From contig NZ_CP101943.1 in NCBI RefSeq assembly GCF_024508235.1, positions 2,019,112 to 2,083,111 of the forward strand: a stretch of 64,000 bases of DNA, in the 5' to 3' direction. Under the pieces are notes generated by a model. That model saw nothing but the letters and a program-made list of their open reading frames with translations, was not told the origin of the DNA and made no database searches. The DNA comes from Halococcus qingdaonensis (GTDB taxonomy: Archaea > Halobacteriota > Halobacteria > Halobacteriales > Halococcaceae). The translations under genes were made by a program, and so were the position numbers. Below, piece after piece: positions 8,026 to 15,651 of this stretch; position 1 is the stretch's first letter; every line of letters begins with the position of its first letter.

Positions 8026-8115
8026 AGATTCGGAGGATGAGTTTCTACAAACTACCACGCAGCTGATGATTTGCTGTTCAGGAAGAACGGTCTATCATGC
8101 TTATCCTGCCTGCGC
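8026..8115 (+). mobile_element. 90-bp non-autonomous derivative of the recombinase element
   Basis: The left 33 bp (8026-8058) match the complement of 12567-12599 at 29 of 33 positions. The right 21 bp (8095-8115) match the complement of 11532-11552 at 20 of 21. The two blocks occur in the same order and orientation as at the ends of the 1,068-bp element carrying the AbrB-like gene and serine recombinase. Only about 36 bp lie between them here. This is therefore best read as an internally deleted copy of that element. Confidence 0.65.
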
Positions 8116-8199
8116 TGCACCCCCATCAGGCTATGAGGTTTCAGTAGGAATCTGAGAACCTGCTTTCCTGCTTAGTCGCCTATTCTACTGGATATGTAC

Positions 8200-8217
8200 T
8201 AATTAGAGGTCTAATTA
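8200..8217. promoter_or_regulatory. Perfect 18-bp palindrome in the P450 promoter
   Basis: TAATTAGA-GG-TCTAATTA has perfect 8-bp arms. It overlaps the probable TATA element (AATTAATAAA, 8212-8221), 43 bp upstream of the P450 start. It is a strong candidate operator for a dimeric regulator. The regulator is not identified. Confidence 0.5.
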
Positions 8218-8259
8218 ATAAAGCAATAACATTATTCAATCGCCTCACGAATATGGGGT

Positions 8260-9474
8260 ATGGCAACTTCAGGACAAGCGGGGCCAGTCGCTCAACCGGA
8301 CGCACTCTCAACACGTGAAGCACGCCTCGATCCGTTCTCGTGGTATCGAGAGATGCGCGAGGAATCACCGATTCGCTACGACGAGGACCGCGGGTGTTGG
8401 GACGTGTTTCGCTACGACGACGTTCAAGACGTTCTCCACAACGCGGAGGAGTTTTCCTCGGAGCGACCGCTGACGGCACAGGGTGAGAATGAAACCGACG
8501 GCATGGCTCTCGAAACCATGCTCAATACCGACCCACCACGCCACGACGAGCTCCGAAAAGTCGTCGACGACCCGTTCAAGCCCGGTGCGGTGAAACACCT
8601 CGCCCCGCACATCCGTGACATCACCAACGAGTACATCGATGCCGTCGTTGATGACGGTGAAATGGATATCGTCGCGGACCTCGCCACGCCGCTGCCAGTC
8701 ACCGTGATCGCCGAACTCATCGGCGTGCCAGCGGACGACCGCGAGCAGTTCAAACAATGGTCCGATACCATCGTCGAAGGTCCCGAAGCAGCCACGGTGA
8801 GCGCTGAAACAGTCAGAGAGGAACAACTACAGACCCAAGCCGAGATGGCGACGTACTTCACGGACCTGATCGAACAGCGTCAGGAAGACCCACGCGATGA
8901 CCTCATCAGTCAGGTCATTCACGCCGAAATCGAAGGCGCTACCCTTTCAAAGGGTGAAACGCTCGGCTTTCTCGCATTGTTGTTGATCGCCGGAAATATC
9001 ACGACCACGAATCTGATCACGAATGCGGTCCGGTGTTTCGCAACGCTTCCAGATGGGATCGAATCGGTCCGTGATGCCGCCTCGCTCGAACTTGCTATCG
9101 AAGAAGTGCTCCGGTACCAATCACCGATTCAAGCAGTCTCACGAATAGCAACAGACGACACACAACTCGGGGGTCACGATGTCGAAGCTGGTGATAGAGT
9201 CGTCGTGTGGAACGGCTCAGCAAACCATGATGGCGACCAGTTCGACGATCCCGACACGTTCGTTCCGGACAGATCGCCGAATCAGCATCTCGCCTTCGGG
9301 AATGGCATCCACTTCTGTCTCGGAGCACACCTGGCACGTCTCGAAGCGAGAACCGCTCTCTCGACGATGTTTGACCGCTTCGAGACGATGCAGGTCCCCG
9401 AAACGGAACTCCAACCAGTCGGGAGCACGTTCCTCTATGGAGTTCAGGAACTCCCAGTTCAATTTACCATATGA
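8260..9474 (+). CDS. Cytochrome P450
   Basis: A 404-residue soluble P450, the normal length for class I archaeal and bacterial enzymes. The heme-thiolate loop FGNGIHFCLGAH places the axial cysteine at 353. The ExxR motif of helix K is E282-R285 in EEVLRYQ. Helix I reads AGNITTTN (A244-G-N-I-T248), so the usual acidic residue before the conserved threonine is isoleucine. The protein should mono-oxygenate an organic substrate with electrons from a ferredoxin system, but no redox partner is encoded nearby. It is convergent with an alcohol dehydrogenase. The substrate is unknown. Confidence 0.93.
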   Translation: MATSGQAGPVAQPDALSTREARLDPFSWYREMREESPIRYDEDRGCWDVFRYDDVQDVLHNAEEFSSERPLTAQGENETDGMALETMLNTDPPRHDELRKVVDDPFKPGAVKHLAPHIRDITNEYIDAVVDDGEMDIVADLATPLPVTVIAELIGVPADDREQFKQWSDTIVEGPEAATVSAETVREEQLQTQAEMATYFTDLIEQRQEDPRDDLISQVIHAEIEGATLSKGETLGFLALLLIAGNITTTNLITNAVRCFATLPDGIESVRDAASLELAIEEVLRYQSPIQAVSRIATDDTQLGGHDVEAGDRVVVWNGSANHDGDQFDDPDTFVPDRSPNQHLAFGNGIHFCLGAHLARLEARTALSTMFDRFETMQVPETELQPVGSTFLYGVQELPVQFTI

Positions 9475-9646
9475 AACAATACTCTAATACCGAGATGTGA
9501 ATATCGGAGTTAACGGATCGCTCTTGTGTCGACTGGCGGAATAGCGTGTTACCAATAACTAATCAAACCTGAGAAACCGCCACTACGTCATGGACACAGG
9601 CCGTTTACGAATTGGATCGCCTGCCATCTCGTGATTCCGCTGTACT

Positions 9647-9670
9647 ACACAAGAGCGGGCGATCTTGTGT
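9647..9670. terminator. Inverted repeat between convergent genes
   Basis: ACACAAGA and TCTTGTGT are perfect 8-bp arms around an 8-base loop, located between the convergent P450 and alcohol dehydrogenase genes. Its position suggests an RNA hairpin at transcript ends. Archaeal termination needs only T-runs, so the role is uncertain. Confidence 0.35.
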
Positions 9671-9740
9671 GCAAAATCGGGATCGGCGTTCTCCCGGCGC
9701 GCAACCGCACGGGGTTATAGCAAAAATTGTCCGAGAGTGC

Positions 9741-10808
9741 TCAGCTACTGAAATCGTTACAGACTGGGATTCCCAGCGTGTTGAATTCGGTCATGGAAGC
9801 GAGTTCATCTGGGACTTCGTGAATGTCGACAGTCTCGCTGACGAGCGCTGCCGGATCGAGTTTGCTCGATTCGATCATGTCTAGCATCTCGCTGTAGCGC
9901 GAGGGCTGGAGACCGAGTGAGCCGTGGAAATCGATCTCCTTGGAAACGAAGTCATCGACCGGCAGTGGAACCATTCCTTCTTCTTCCGAGGTGGTCAACC
10001 CGATCTGAACGTGCGTTCCGCCTTTGCGGAGGCTGTTGACCGCGTTCTGGCAAGTGGTTTTGATACCGAGTCCGTCGGCTGAGACGTCCGCTCCTCCGTC
10101 AGTGATGTCGTGAACTTCGGCGGCGGGATCGTCGACCTCACTAGCGTTGACGGTGGCGACCGCACCGAGTTCTTCAGCTTTGTCGAGATTCTCATCCTTC
10201 AGGTCCACCGCGATCACGTTGCCACCGAGAGCGTTGGCAATGTGGACGGCTGAAAGACCGATACCACCGCAGCCGTGGATCACCACATCATCGCCACCGC
10301 TTACGGGTGCCCGATGGGCCATCGCGTGAAACGAAGTCATAAATCGGCAGCCACACCCAGCGGCGGTTTCAGCGTCGATACTGTCCGGCAGCGGCACAGC
10401 GTTGACATCGGCGTGTGGAATGTGAACCTCCTCGGCGAACGCTCCGGGAGCTTGATTCATGAATCCCAACCCGATGTGGTTCTCACAGATGTTCTCGCGG
10501 CCGTTCCGACACAGATCACAGGTCCCGCATGCGAGGCAGAACGGGATTGCGATTTCCTGCCCCTCTTCGACGGTTTCGACATCCTCACCGACGGATACGA
10601 TACGAGCAGTGGGTTCGTGACCGAGAACGTGTGGCGGGTCGGGCCGGTAACCGAACCAGTCCCAGTCGCCCTGCCAGCAGTGCCAATCCGAGCGGCAGAC
10701 TCCACACCCGATGAGTTTGGCGACGGCTCCATCGGGTTCTGGTTCAGGACGTTCGACATCCTGGACGGTCAACGGCTCCTGAAACTCCTCCAGTACAACT
10801 GCCTGCAT
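9741..10808 (-). CDS. Zinc-dependent alcohol dehydrogenase (MDR family)
   Basis: A 355-residue medium-chain dehydrogenase starting MQAVVLEEF at the ATG ending at 10808. An upstream in-frame start would add only a short leader. Catalytic zinc ligands are in GVCRSDWH and GHEP. The structural-zinc lobe has four cysteines in CLACGTCDLCRNGRENIC. The Rossmann motif is GCGGIGLSAVH near residue 175. It should oxidise an alcohol, or reduce an aldehyde, with NAD(P). It is convergent with the P450, so a shared substrate pathway is possible but unproven. Confidence 0.9.
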   Translation of the reverse strand: MQAVVLEEFQEPLTVQDVERPEPEPDGAVAKLIGCGVCRSDWHCWQGDWDWFGYRPDPPHVLGHEPTARIVSVGEDVETVEEGQEIAIPFCLACGTCDLCRNGRENICENHIGLGFMNQAPGAFAEEVHIPHADVNAVPLPDSIDAETAAGCGCRFMTSFHAMAHRAPVSGGDDVVIHGCGGIGLSAVHIANALGGNVIAVDLKDENLDKAEELGAVATVNASEVDDPAAEVHDITDGGADVSADGLGIKTTCQNAVNSLRKGGTHVQIGLTTSEEEGMVPLPVDDFVSKEIDFHGSLGLQPSRYSEMLDMIESSKLDPAALVSETVDIHEVPDELASMTEFNTLGIPVCNDFSS

Positions 10809-11229
10809 GACATTCCCACACACGAAGAGGCAGCTAATAACCATTATGGATGATGGTTTTCATTTAATCAGTGTTTTCATCACTCCCTCTCATCGGTCTA
10901 GTGAATAATGACAGAGTATGCACTCATGAGTCCTGTACGAATCACGAGTAAATCCATTTCGAGCGCGAATCAGCGACGAAAAACCACCGGACAGCAGTAG
11001 TTCATTATTCCAATGAGTTACAACTGACATCGTGACTTGGCGGTTTCGGGGTAATTCTATCACAATACAGAGTAATATCGGTGTACGTCGAGGAGGTTTG
11101 GCTCGTCAGATTTACACTCCGGACGCGGGGTGTCGTCGCGCCGATCACGTCGGAGCGCTACCCTGCAACGAAGGGAGTGCCTACTGACTGGGTGAGAAAA
11201 CATATATCGACGGGTGATGGAAATGGTGT
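10809..11229. other. 420-bp intergenic stretch
   Basis: No coding frame of any quality was seen. The part next to the dehydrogenase is AT-rich (around 10840-10880) and should contain its promoter. The part next to 11230 holds an AT element (AACATATATC, about 11199-11208) that can serve as the TATA box of the small membrane protein. Confidence 0.4.
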
Positions 11230-11448
11230 ATGGTCAACACTCTCTTGAGTCAGTATAGAAGGGTGGACCAGTGGCTTAGAGATCTGCCGCGAGCTTGGTA
11301 TGTTCTTTTGGTTGGTATCGGGTTTTTCGCTACTTGGATTGGTCTATCACTTATTCTGGGAGGAGAACCGCTCTATCGGTCGATACTTCTGGGTGGGGTT
11401 GGGGCTTTCACTTTTGCTAGCGTCTATTACTTTCTGGGTTCCCGCTAA
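11230..11448 (+). CDS. Small two-helix membrane protein, 72 residues
   Basis: Two hydrophobic segments are visible, about residues 24-43 (YVLLVGIGFFATWIGLSLIL) and 50-68 (SILLGGVGAFTFASVYYFL), with a basic N-terminus. It starts at the ATG at 11230, about 22 bp after a TATA-like element, and ends at 11448 before the recombinase element. Base composition is more AT-rich than the core genes. The function is unknown. Confidence 0.5.
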   Translation: MVNTLLSQYRRVDQWLRDLPRAWYVLLVGIGFFATWIGLSLILGGEPLYRSILLGGVGAFTFASVYYFLGSR

Positions 11449-11574
11449 TCGTGCTTTTTACACTGAGGCGTTCGATGTGCAGACAACTTCTGTAGATAGG
11501 ACCACTTTTACGGCCCTCGGAGGGGCCGTCGGCGCTGGCAGGATAAGCATGACCCAAAGCCATCCGACCAATTC

Positions 11575-12315
11575 CTACCGTGACGAGTTGATCGTCCGTC
11601 TTGGCTGTGAAGTCGAGCTACGCTCGTTTCCGTTCACATCCGCGGGAAGATACCGCTCGCAGCGGGAGTAGATCCGGCGCGCGGTGTCTTTGTTCACGCT
11701 GGTCTCGCGTTCGATCTCTCGCCAGGAGCGACCATCGTTGCGGAGTCTGATACACGCAAGCGCCGCTTGGTACTCGTCAGTGTCATGGGCAGGAACCCAG
11801 TAGCGTCCGTCCTCGTCGTAGGTCAGCCCGAACGGTAGACGACCGTGATCGTAGCCATTCTCGATGCGTTCCTGTGTTGCGCGTTTCGAGCGCGCGATCT
11901 CTTTGCGTTTCTCGACGTCGTCGGTAGTCGCCCGAATTGACTGGTGGACGAGTGCCCAATCGTCATCGAGATCGACCGCACGACCGAGCTCAACCGAATG
12001 AACCGCGACGTCAGCTGTATCGACGTCAAGCAAGAGTCGGAGACGTTCCTTGCGATCACGGGAGAGTCGCGAGAGGTTCGGGACGATAACCGTATCCACA
12101 CCGCCGTCAGCAACGTGCTCACGGAGCGCGGTGTACTCCGGGCGGTCGGTATCGAACCCGGAACTTCGTTTGCCCTCGTCGTAGACTGTGATCAGCTCGA
12201 CCCCGCGCCCAGTTGCGTAGTCCTTGACGTCCCGGCGCTGTCGATTGAGTGATTTCCCGTCTTGAGAGAGTCGAATGTAGCCGACAGCAGTGTCGGATTC
12301 GGTTTCAGTCGTCAT
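11575..12315 (-). CDS. Serine site-specific recombinase (resolvase/invertase family)
   Basis: A 246-residue protein starting MTTETESDTAVGYIRLSQDG; the catalytic serine is S17 in YIRLS. The conserved arginine region VPNLSRLSRDR follows near residue 80. A helical E-helix region (ARSKRATQERIENG) and a C-terminal helix-turn-helix (SWREIERETSVNKDTARRIY) come next. It should cut and rejoin DNA through a phosphoserine intermediate. Its start overlaps the stop of the AbrB-like gene (ATGA-type overlap), so the two are translationally coupled and probably work together. Confidence 0.88.
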   Translation of the reverse strand: MTTETESDTAVGYIRLSQDGKSLNRQRRDVKDYATGRGVELITVYDEGKRSSGFDTDRPEYTALREHVADGGVDTVIVPNLSRLSRDRKERLRLLLDVDTADVAVHSVELGRAVDLDDDWALVHQSIRATTDDVEKRKEIARSKRATQERIENGYDHGRLPFGLTYDEDGRYWVPAHDTDEYQAALACIRLRNDGRSWREIERETSVNKDTARRIYSRCERYLPADVNGNERSSTSQPRRTINSSR

Positions 12316-12463
12316 CGTCGACCACACGGAGTTCGAAGGTGTTGCCGGACTTGACCGACCACTCGAATCGTTTGCCGTCGAGATCGAACCCCTCGACGAA
12401 CCCGAGAGGGACGGTGGTCTTGTAGTGGCGATCACCGGCTTTGTTGATGGCTGTTGTCGGCAT
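12305..12463 (-). CDS. AbrB-like small DNA-binding protein, 52 residues
   Basis: A 52-residue protein that starts MPTTAINKAGDRHYKTTVP. The HYKTTVPLGFVEGF and KRFEWSVKSGNTFELRVV blocks follow the swapped-hairpin AbrB pattern (basic strand, P-x-F turn, then two beta strands). It precedes the serine recombinase and overlaps its start by a few bases. Two related palindromes lie 8-40 bp upstream of its start, which suggests autoregulation of the pair. It may act as repressor or as accessory factor for recombination. Confidence 0.7.
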   Translation of the reverse strand: MPTTAINKAGDRHYKTTVPLGFVEGFDLDGKRFEWSVKSGNTFELRVVDDDD

Positions 12464-12470
12464 TGGTGAT

Positions 12471-12503
12471 CCGTACTATGGTTAGTACGGTATTTAGTAC
12501 TAA
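12471..12503. promoter_or_regulatory. Two palindromes upstream of the AbrB-like gene
   Basis: CCGTACTA-TGGT-TAGTACGG (12471-12490) is a perfect inverted repeat, and TTAGTACTAA (12494-12503) is a 10-bp palindrome with the same TAGTAC core. They lie 8 and 31 bp before the start codon and overlap the likely TATA region (ACTAAATAC on the minus strand). Repeated use of one core is what an autoregulating DNA-binding protein would need. Confidence 0.5.
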
Positions 12504-12657
12504 TGGAGGTGTATCAGAAAGGTGGGTTTCTGAGACGCTACTGCACTTTCCAAAACAGTTAGAAGACTGGTGGTTTGTAGAAATCCATCCTCCGAATCTC
12601 TGGATCTCCAAGGCTGACTGATGTCACGAACGACAGAATCTATGCACGAGAATCGGG

Positions 12658-14451
12658 ATGAGGATGAGTCGGACGGCTAACCGGTCGGGGAGGAACACAG
12701 TCCCGAGTGGTCACAAACGACACAGAACGGGTCGGGGCTGCGGAACGCAGCCTCGACCCGATGACCGACTGAAGAACACTGATTCCCTTTCTGGCGGACG
12801 GTTGCTGTTGACAAAACAGGCCGAAGACATCCTCGACGAGACATCTGACGCGGTCGAGGTGGTCAGCCACCTCGATCTCGCTTCGTACGCCCAAAACGAT
12901 CCATTCCCGGACTGGCACGACTCGAAGCCGTTCGAACCGATGGTTCGGGCGCTCTTTCTCGGCGAACTCGAAGATGCGTCCGATGCCGCCGTGCATCGGA
13001 CGCTCGAAGAGGACCCCGACGTGGCAGCCGATCTTGGATTCGATCCTGACGACGTACCTAATCAGAGTACGCTCTCGCGTGCGCGTCGCAACCGATTCGA
13101 AGAGTTTCAATCGAGAATCGAAGAGAGCGCGCGGCAGATTCGGATGCTTGCCGCCAGACGTGGGAGTCCAATCGGGACGCCCTACGCTGACAGCGCTTCG
13201 GAGGAGCCGACAGGCTCCTCGAAGCGCACCGTCAACCGACTCATTCGCGGGAAAACCCGCGAAGTGGTCGAAGAGCTCACCTCTGTCGTGTTCCCGGCGA
13301 TCGATTTCGACCGACCCGATGGGTCGATCTACGACGACGAAGAGCTTCTGCTGCTGGAGACGTTGCTCGGGGTCACAGGCACCGCCGCCAACGGCGGTGC
13401 CGAGATCTACGGCGATTACGTCAATCCTGAGCCGGATCTCGATGATCCATTCTACGAGGACGGTCCGTCTGGAGAGACGCTGTTAACGGCGGTCAAAGAC
13501 CTCGACCTCGACGAAATCACGGAGATGGTCAACCGTGGCGCGGCCCGCGTCTTGACGCGGGCCAAGCCGTACGTGGAGTTCGACCGGCCGGTCATGATCG
13601 CGATCGACATGACCTACATCGCCTACTACGGTGAACGTGACGAGATAGTTCGCGTTCAGGGAGCTCCTAAGGACAAATCCTACGACTGGTGCTACAAGTT
13701 CGCGACTGCGAGCGTTGTTGGCGATAACATCCAGTTCACCGCGGCAATGCTTCCGATCGGTGACGCTGATGATCATGATCCGAACGAGTACGTTGGCGAA
13801 GACAAATCCTATCGAGCCGGCGGCGTGGTCCGCCGGCTCGTGGATATTGTCGAGGAGCGCGTCAGATTGAGCGTCCGCCGCGTCTACGCTGACAGAGAGT
13901 TCCACGCTGCGGACGTGATCGAAGCACTCGAACAGCGTGATCTGTTCTACGTGATCCCGGCCACGCGCGATGCCCGCGTGAAGCGGTTCATCGCGCGCAT
14001 GGACGATCAGGTCACGGTCAAGGATACATGGGCGATGCACGGTCCCGTGAAGGGAAAACCAAACAATGCCAGGGTTGAGACGACGTTAGTTGGACTCCCT
14101 CCTGACGAGGATCGCGACGAAATCCAAACGTTCCTGACCAATCTCGCCGTCGACGACGAGATTGGTCTGGATCGGCGGCAGACACGACGTCGGATTAAGC
14201 GATACACCCGACGAGGCGGTATCGAGAACGCCTACGGCAGCATCAAGGAATTCGCCCCGTGGACGACATCGAAAGACTACGCCGTGCGGTTGTTCCACTT
14301 CGGATTCGCGATGCTGCTGTACGATATGTGGCTGTTGGTTGACCTCTTGGTCCAACTCTCGCTTGGTGTCGTGGAATTCCGCACGAAACCGCGGGTCATC
14401 GCCCCGCGGTTTCGTGGCTTCCTCCAGAGGAGGTTGGTAACACTCCTGTAG
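12658..14451 (+). CDS. DDE transposase
   Basis: The open frame of 597 codons begins just inside the left inverted repeat. The true start is probably later, for example the TTG at 12808 in front of TKQAEDILDETSD, because the first 50 residues look non-native. Catalytic blocks are AIDMTYIAYYG near 318, YADREFHAADVIE near 414 and GGIENAYGSIKEF near 530, which supply the D, D and E of an RNase-H-fold transposase related to the IS4/IS5 group. The frame is intact. Confidence 0.8.
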   Translation: MRMSRTANRSGRNTVPSGHKRHRTGRGCGTQPRPDDRLKNTDSLSGGRLLLTKQAEDILDETSDAVEVVSHLDLASYAQNDPFPDWHDSKPFEPMVRALFLGELEDASDAAVHRTLEEDPDVAADLGFDPDDVPNQSTLSRARRNRFEEFQSRIEESARQIRMLAARRGSPIGTPYADSASEEPTGSSKRTVNRLIRGKTREVVEELTSVVFPAIDFDRPDGSIYDDEELLLLETLLGVTGTAANGGAEIYGDYVNPEPDLDDPFYEDGPSGETLLTAVKDLDLDEITEMVNRGAARVLTRAKPYVEFDRPVMIAIDMTYIAYYGERDEIVRVQGAPKDKSYDWCYKFATASVVGDNIQFTAAMLPIGDADDHDPNEYVGEDKSYRAGGVVRRLVDIVEERVRLSVRRVYADREFHAADVIEALEQRDLFYVIPATRDARVKRFIARMDDQVTVKDTWAMHGPVKGKPNNARVETTLVGLPPDEDRDEIQTFLTNLAVDDEIGLDRRQTRRRIKRYTRRGGIENAYGSIKEFAPWTTSKDYAVRLFHFGFAMLLYDMWLLVDLLVQLSLGVVEFRTKPRVIAPRFRGFLQRRLVTLL

Positions 14452-14524
14452 AACCCGCGCCGGGTTCGCCCCTCAGTAGAGGCGTCACTGTCCAGTTCCC
14501 CTGATTTCACTCTGAGGCCCTTGT

Positions 14525-14558
14525 GCAACTGCCACTCAGTGGAGTGAGTGGCAGTTGC
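14525..14558. terminator. Perfect 13-bp hairpin downstream of the transposase
   Basis: GCAACTGCCACTC and GAGTGGCAGTTGC flank an 8-base loop, 74 bp after the transposase stop and inside the element. It may end the transposase transcript or block read-through from outside. Confidence 0.4.
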
Positions 14559-14853
14559 GGATGCTCGATTCGGGTCAGATCATATCGGAATTTTCGATTT
14601 AGCGGCTCTCCCGTGCATAGATTTTGGGGTATTCGCAGCAGCAGGGCTGAATTTCGATAAACCACTATAAAGTGTATAAACTCTAATATTGAGTCTAAGC
14701 CACCTGTTACGGTTGAAATCGGAGGAATTGGCGGTTTTTCGGTTTACTCGTGCTTAGTTGAATAAGGGCACGTAGATTTATCCACCTCCCCGCCCTCTCC
14801 CACAGCGTACCAGATGCCACGACCCAGAACCACGGTTACTCATCGCGAGAGCA

Positions 14854-15549
14854 GTGCTCGAGCCAGCGAACGCAGTGGAGGCGCGTAGCGTGGTGTCGAT
14901 TGATGCAGTTATCGAGGACTTCCTGACGGACAAGGGCAAAGGTCAGGGTGGCGAGAGCGGCAACTATCGCCAGGACGCGGGCCGAGAGCTCGATCGGCTC
15001 GTCGATTTTCTTACTGGCCACGAAGACAGTCCGACGACGTTCGACGAGTTGGACTCGGGCCACCTGCGCGAGTACGCGCGTCACCTCACTCGGCAAGGTT
15101 GGACAGCGGGCACTGTGCGCACCTACTACGCGTACGTCTCCGCGTTCTGTGGCTGGGCCGTCCGTGAGGGGCACCTCGCCGAGAACGTCGCTCAGCGGCG
15201 CAACGCGACCGAGCCAATTCCCGACGACGGTGGTCACAAGAGCGGCGAGCAGCAAGCGTGGTCGGCCGAAGATCGCCAGCAGCTCACCGGCTTCGTCGAC
15301 GAGCAAGCCAGCACGGCGATCGACAACGTCGGCGAAGACAGAGAGGCAGCGATCAAAGCCTGCCGTGATCGTGCACTCGTCTATCTCCTCTCGTACTCCG
15401 GCGTGCGAGGCGCGGAAATTCTTCGAGATCGGAGCGATGAGCGTCGGCAGGGGCTTCGGTGGGAAGACGTTCACCTCGAAGATCGCTATGCGACGGTCTT
15501 CGCGAAAAAGCAGCGCCTCGACGATCGAGGTCTTCCCAACCCAGTCTGA
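14854..15549 (+). pseudogene. Tyrosine recombinase (XerC/D-like integrase), truncated
   Basis: A SAM-like core-binding domain (about residues 14-110: DAVIEDFLTDKG, FDELDSGHLREYARHLTRQGW) is followed by the start of the catalytic domain, with the first catalytic arginine at about 185 in SGVRGAEI. The frame then stops at 15549, within the first bases of the 106-bp MITE, after LPNPV. The H-x-x-R and catalytic tyrosine are missing, so the protein cannot recombine DNA. The start is uncertain: GTG at 14854 or the GTG pair about 12 codons later. Confidence 0.85.
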
Positions 15550-15651
15550 AGTCAGGCAGGCAGTTTGTTCATGCACGACCAACAATGGAACAATCTCGAT
15601 CTAAATTGCGTAGGGAGACTGTGCATGATGAATCGACCTAGCTGACTTCTG
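15546..15651 (+). mobile_element. MITE, copy B (106 bp), at a gene-breaking junction
   Basis: It begins CTGAAGTCAGGCAGG and ends in the complement of CAGAAGTCAGCTAGG, giving terminal inverted repeats with about 12 of 15 matches. It is the inverted counterpart of 6338-6442. The integrase reading frame stops in its first four bases, and the dppB frame enters from the other side and ends inside it at 15601. Two unrelated truncated genes thus meet at one element. The flanks show no target duplication, as expected for recombination between copies rather than simple insertion. Confidence 0.7.

Follow-up and report, generated by a model that had tools for sequence, protein, structure and literature searches.

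A compact two-gene unit in the genome of Halococcus qingdaonensis probably functions as a plasmid resolvase module together with its res site, the product of its first gene serving as an autorepressor or accessory factor. Judging from a comparison of related loci, the unit is composed of a control region followed by a gene coding for an AbrB-like protein and an overlapping gene coding for a serine recombinase. It lies in the window, i.e., the 64,000-nucleotide stretch analyzed here, which is part of a 2.70-Mb Halococcus contig. Small serine recombinases as such are a known kind; the archaeal arrangement of recombinase and AbrB-like protein appears to be undescribed. A survey of the open literature on AbrB and serine recombinases in archaea and on haloarchaeal resolvases, with subscription papers mostly outside its scope, yielded no description of the module. 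According to a review, archaeal serine recombinases have been seen in transposons and never fully investigated (PMC8371274). The present analysis delineates a widespread non-transposon family, for which it defines the protein pair and predicts both a 26-bp crossover site and a regulator array.

Genes of the module

The AbrB/MazE-like protein (52 residues) is encoded on the minus strand at 12305 to 12463 and the recombinase (247 residues) on the same strand at 11575 to 12318, its ATG codon being located inside the final codons of the AbrB-like gene. The preliminary description of this locus had reported the two coupled genes, and the comparative data bear this out. A search of 286 haloarchaeal genomes of the order with the AbrB-like protein found 29 places in 23 genomes and 13 genera. 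At 27 of the 28 loci with an AbrB-like ORF, the recombinase gene followed next in the same orientation, and the two genes usually overlapped or abutted; the sole exception was a broken copy in genome G085.

The recombinase matches the Pfam Resolvase family (E = 4.3e-21), with a catalytic domain at residues 11 to 155 and a helix-turn-helix (HTH) at residues 190 to 220 approximately. Searches of the PDB returned the Tn3 and gamma-delta resolvases, Foldseek matches included Sin (2r0q), and profile matches included DNA invertases and, across the catalytic domain, phage serine integrases (phrog_95). The order of a catalytic domain followed by an HTH was seen in the alignment and in a structure model with helices 181 to 218 on the C-terminal side; as that model is of low confidence (pLDDT of 67), only the catalytic-domain match was relied on. 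In family member L117, HTH_23 and HTH_7 matched at residues 183 to 216. The motifs Y-[ILV]-R-L-S-Q and S-R-L-S-R-D-R are invariant among eight aligned recombinases and, by the known residue roles of the family, would provide the serine nucleophile and conserved arginines. Its domain layout, its conserved residues, and the form of its dyad site (see below) identify the protein as a predicted canonical small serine recombinase of the resolvase/invertase group.

The 52-residue protein family is assigned to the AbrB/MazE/SpoVT group by profile matches of its members: MazE_antitoxin (PF04014) matched 15 of 24 of them at an E value of ≤1 (best, 9.6e-6), while the window copy alone gave no PF04014 match. 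Its fold was modeled as beta-beta-helix-beta-beta. The top Foldseek matches were VapB/MazE antitoxins, at nonsignificant levels, and a search of solved structures with the family profile found nothing relevant.

Distribution of the module

The module occurs on many haloarchaeal plasmids, with neighbors that differ from one plasmid to another; the window copy and several others are chromosomal. Seven plasmid records with an AbrB-like match also had a recombinase match, and several module-bearing plasmids have Orc1/Cdc6, ParA, or P4-type primase genes. Beyond the order but within the phylum, most AbrB-like matches were weak and had no recombinase; loci L162 and L163 do have one. A viral origin was rejected, as phage records contained no relative and viral contigs yielded none with the window query.

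In a three-gene variant, an extra gene of approximately 130 codons, the product of which had no Pfam match, separates the AbrB-like and recombinase genes in two loci (L114, 5601 to 5999; L115, 4416 to 4802). The recombinases of L115, L117, L119, and L139 have a C-terminal half similar to that of the window protein and a catalytic half of another clade (RKSQG), which looks like domain shuffling; the sites of these four loci start with GTCT or GTCC.

A candidate crossover site upstream of the operon

Comparison of the loci brought out a 26-bp dyad, GTCTCAGAAACC-CA-CCTTTCTGATAC (12511 to 12536, minus strand), which precedes the AbrB-like start codon by approximately 47 bp. Its two 12-bp half-sites flank an asymmetric central dinucleotide, and this 12-2-12 layout is that of a resolvase/invertase crossover site (site I), where strand exchange is predicted to take place. 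The dyad was assessed on 24 sites chosen, at about this distance from the gene, by two features only, namely, GT...AC ends and a core rich in C or G. Their inner arms were complementary at 139 of 192 positions, compared with 92.6 ± 5.4 for shuffled arms (maximum of 112 in 5000 shufflings). Another 17 loci, some of them duplicates, failed the exact end and core rule; in several of them, the dyad is present with an altered end base, core, or spacer, and in others (e.g., L118 and L145) it is not clear. Outside the order, L162 has, by inspection, a 10/10 dyad at the same spacing, TTTCCAAAAAGGGGTATTTTTGGAAA.

The central dinucleotide was nonpalindromic in all 24 sites (CC, GG, CA, or TG), as required for site polarity. 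That polarity flips between family members, which would be harmless if recombination occurs only between identical copies. Genome G269 has two dyad copies with identical arms and opposite centers, CC and GG, each beside its own operon and on different contigs.

The window dyad is present in a single copy in its genome. No second dyad was detected in three plasmids at up to 5 mismatches over the 20 arm positions (two plasmids complete, the third 85% covered with 9 kb unread), nor in the tested genomes at up to 3 mismatches. A plasmid resolvase is expected to have one res site on each replicon, adjacent to its gene, and this is what was found where tested; this arrangement fits multimer resolution, and neither inversion nor multisite transposition.

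The preliminary description did not list the dyad, which our comparison points to as the functional right boundary of the module. DNA conserved with Halococcus thailandensis (locus L003) extends from 11529 to 12538 at 89% identity, and homology with more distant relatives stops at 12532 to 12541, although the break at the edge of the dyad could merely reflect where conserved regulatory DNA ends. The conserved part is followed in H. thailandensis by approximately 0.93 kb with a vapBC pair (MazE_antitoxin and PIN domain matches) and only thereafter by the att-like core described below as the right block; the same order of vapBC and core, again over approximately 0.93 kb, is found in G085 (L016) beside the broken copy of the gene pair. 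The dyad is adjoined by vapBC in two Halococcus genomes.

A palindrome array that tracks the AbrB-like protein

The 50-bp stretch between the dyad and the start codon contains three palindromes of the TAGNNCTA type at 12-bp spacing (12471 to 12503, minus strand), which we propose to be a binding array for the AbrB-like protein. Accessory recombinase-binding sites (site II/III) were sought near the dyad, and no second dyad was found there; the repeats located between site I and the gene track AbrB rather than the recombinase.

We compared the divergence of both elements with that of both proteins at 28 loci, at some of which the site failed the end rule and was placed by eye, so that the sizes of the correlations are approximate. 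Half-site distance of the dyad correlated with distance of the recombinase, both for the catalytic domain (r = 0.54) and for the HTH (r = 0.44), with partial correlations controlling for AbrB of 0.51 and 0.43 (P = 0.001); the correlation of the dyad with AbrB given the HTH was 0.15 (P = 0.07). Array distance followed that of AbrB (r = 0.66; 0.65 given the HTH, P = 0.001), compared with 0.03 for the HTH given AbrB. From these distance correlations, we infer that the dyad is the binding site of the recombinase and the array that of the AbrB-like protein.

Proposed function and alternative explanations

In the model that we favor, a dimer of the recombinase would bind the 26-bp crossover site that immediately precedes its own operon, and recombination between two copies of this site in direct repeat would resolve plasmid multimers or cointegrates into monomers. 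On the stretch that separates this site from the start codon, the AbrB-like protein would occupy the tandem array and repress the operon, and it may also shape the synaptic complex. The comparison of loci shows that the gene pair is conserved, that the dyad exists and has a 12-2-12 geometry, that it codiverges with the recombinase and the array with AbrB, and that there is one site per replicon where tested. That the proteins bind these sequences and that strand exchange occurs, with resolution and not inversion as its outcome, is our inference, as is the function of the AbrB-like protein. A role of the latter past autoregulation is a proposal. One version of it, possible but rather doubtful, is that the coencoded protein, bound to three palindromes spaced by 12 bp next to site I, serves as the topological filter by which the recombinase is confined to resolving plasmid multimers, in place of accessory recombinase sites or HU/Fis.

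A DNA invertase or phase variation switch would act on two inverted 26-bp sites. The site is of the size of the 26-bp hixL site of Hin (PMC4817059), with 12-bp half-sites and a 2-bp center as in the hix/gix sites of Hin and Gin, the recombinase matches invertase profiles, and the polarity of the center varies between loci; we nevertheless consider inversion unlikely, given the single site per plasmid or genome where tested and the position of the opposite-polarity sites of G269, each beside its own operon on separate contigs. The module differs from Hin and Gin in its single site per replicon and in that no enhancer was identified. The dyad and repeats might instead be mere operators of the operon, with the recombinase acting elsewhere, as they occupy the promoter region, ≤75 bp from the start codon, and the AbrB-like protein has the fold of a regulator or antitoxin. 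This reading is improbable too, as the dyad tracks the recombinase, including its HTH, better than AbrB, and its 2-bp center is always nonpalindromic. Since resolvases autoregulate from their res sites (PMC7157771), a role as operator is compatible with one in crossover. Finally, the gene pair might serve an integrative plasmid for its integration, with the recombinase as integrase; its phrog_95 match and the fact that the window and H. thailandensis copies adjoin an att-like site and a tyrosine integrase would be in keeping with this. The recombinase, however, does not reach the length of a large serine integrase, no attL/attR-like pair of dyads was found, and the role of integrase is already held by the neighboring tyrosine recombinase, which makes this explanation very unlikely.

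Comparison with known systems

Classical resolvases use second recombinase-binding sites (site II/III). Like the Tn3 and gamma-delta resolvases, the archaeal protein has an N-terminal catalytic domain and a small C-terminal HTH, with a crossover dyad just upstream of its gene; unlike them, the module has no transposase and no recognized site II/III, its AbrB-like gene always comes first in the operon, and the presumed sites of the AbrB-like protein fill the accessory position. The presence of vapBC beside the dyad parallels that of toxin-antitoxin genes adjoining res site I in Tn3-family transposons (PMC7157771). The module also resembles the Sin/beta-type resolvases of staphylococcal plasmids (86-bp res) in its compact site, its occurrence on plasmids, and a nonrecombinase protein next to site I, Sin using an architectural protein at its compact res site (PMC2764113). 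Sin relies on host HU and its own site II, whereas the module would use a dedicated, coencoded AbrB-like protein, and no site II was seen.

IS607 elements, known in archaea, share the catalytic domain of serine recombinases and usually carry TnpB. No TnpB is present in the module or, as the preliminary description had noted, between the two DNA blocks discussed below. The DNA-binding domain of IS607 is of the MerR type and N-terminal (PMC4058570), whereas the catalytic domain of the module recombinase begins at residue 11 and its HTH is C-terminal. With a score of 27.8 bits against a cutoff of 110 for the NCBIfam IS607 model, this domain order excludes IS607, in agreement with that description.

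The module opens archaeal resolution and recombination at high salt to testing, the materials being a substrate of 73 bp and two small proteins, and its approximately 28 divergent recombinase-site pairs lend themselves directly to a study of half-site choice by the HTH.

Two repeated blocks flank the module

The preliminary description had proposed a compact mobile element of 1,068 bp (11532 to 12599), a serine recombinase insertion sequence with 33-bp and 21-bp blocks as its ends. This was based on a second copy of both blocks near 8026, and the similarity is real: that copy shares 29 of 32 bases with 12568 to 12599 and 20 of 21 with 11532 to 11552, in the same order and in the opposite orientation. 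This second, inverted pairing (8027 to 8115, minus strand) comprises an att-like core at 8027 to 8051 and a left-block repeat at 8095 to 8115, without recombinase, AbrB-like gene, or dyad, and no significant similarity extends beyond the two blocks, including to the left of the core. An insertion sequence is hardly tenable, however: the whole unit has no second copy in this genome, vapBC intervenes between gene pair and right block in relatives, and other relatives lack both blocks. Across haloarchaeal genomes, each block occurs without the other, the outcome that the preliminary description itself had named as refuting it. The DNA beside the blocks differs between genomes, and identical ends around each copy were not found. 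As an observation apart, the two repeats form, from 8027 to 12599, an inverted pair around a P450-like gene (8260 to 9474) and an alcohol dehydrogenase-like gene (9741 to 10844), both named by reading only.

The right block, GGTGGTTTGTAGAAATCCATCCTCCGAATCTCTG (12569 to 12602, plus strand), has dispersed copies and is outside the module. A search with a 25-base pattern, in which up to 3 mismatches were allowed, found it in 19 of the 286 genomes of the order, compared with no match for a reversed control pattern, and most sites have no recombinase of this kind. At approximately ten distinct sites, a tyrosine integrase gene opens some 120 to 320 bp away on the same side. Unrelated sites share only a core of approximately 33 bp (−5 to +28), and the flank that continues is sometimes the left one (1.5 kb identical in G014), sometimes the right one, on the integrase side. 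Conservation of a core with alternating flanks is what characterizes site-specific attachment, and the right block is thus probably the att core of the neighboring integrase. An alternative origin as the end of an IS200/IS605 or TnpB element was rejected, the ORFs near 13 copies being integrases and unrelated genes, with no TnpB noticed on reading.

In the window, the partner of the core is a truncated XerC-like tyrosine integrase gene (14854 to 15549, plus strand), with 94% identity over 231 residues to the intact integrase of L003. An ISH3-like transposase (12658 to 14451) lies between them. At 12658 to 15604, the ISH3-like insertion and an integrase cut short at 15549 mark the integrative element as decayed. 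The att-like core with this integrase family, with flanks exchanged, was seen in the window and in L003, L029, L031, L048, L049, L052, L058, L063, and L065, and in contig C32 of G061, two cores stand as direct repeats at a distance of 11.2 kb. To the left of the same att-like core, L052 (1610 to 2407, plus strand) and L067 (604 to 1398, minus strand) have a small serine recombinase different from that of the module, with no AbrB-like gene noticed and a repeated TTTTTCGGCCACCC upstream.

The left block, GCCGTCGGCGCAGGCAGGATAAGCATGA (11521 to 11552, plus strand), is a dispersed extragenic repeat of Halococcus, likewise outside the module. Its 10 copies are confined to 4 Halococcus genomes among the 146 searched, and most have no recombinase nearby. 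No Rfam family was found at its coordinates, the one match, to SNORD35, being subthreshold and located elsewhere. The repeat, which could be a structured RNA or a REP-like element, consists of a G+C-rich hairpin followed by GTCGGCGCAGGCAGGATAAGCATGA and is intergenic (window, 11508 to 11552; L069, L070, L083, L085, L088, L089, and L091). It sometimes occurs in divergent pairs, 1 to 2.5 kb apart.
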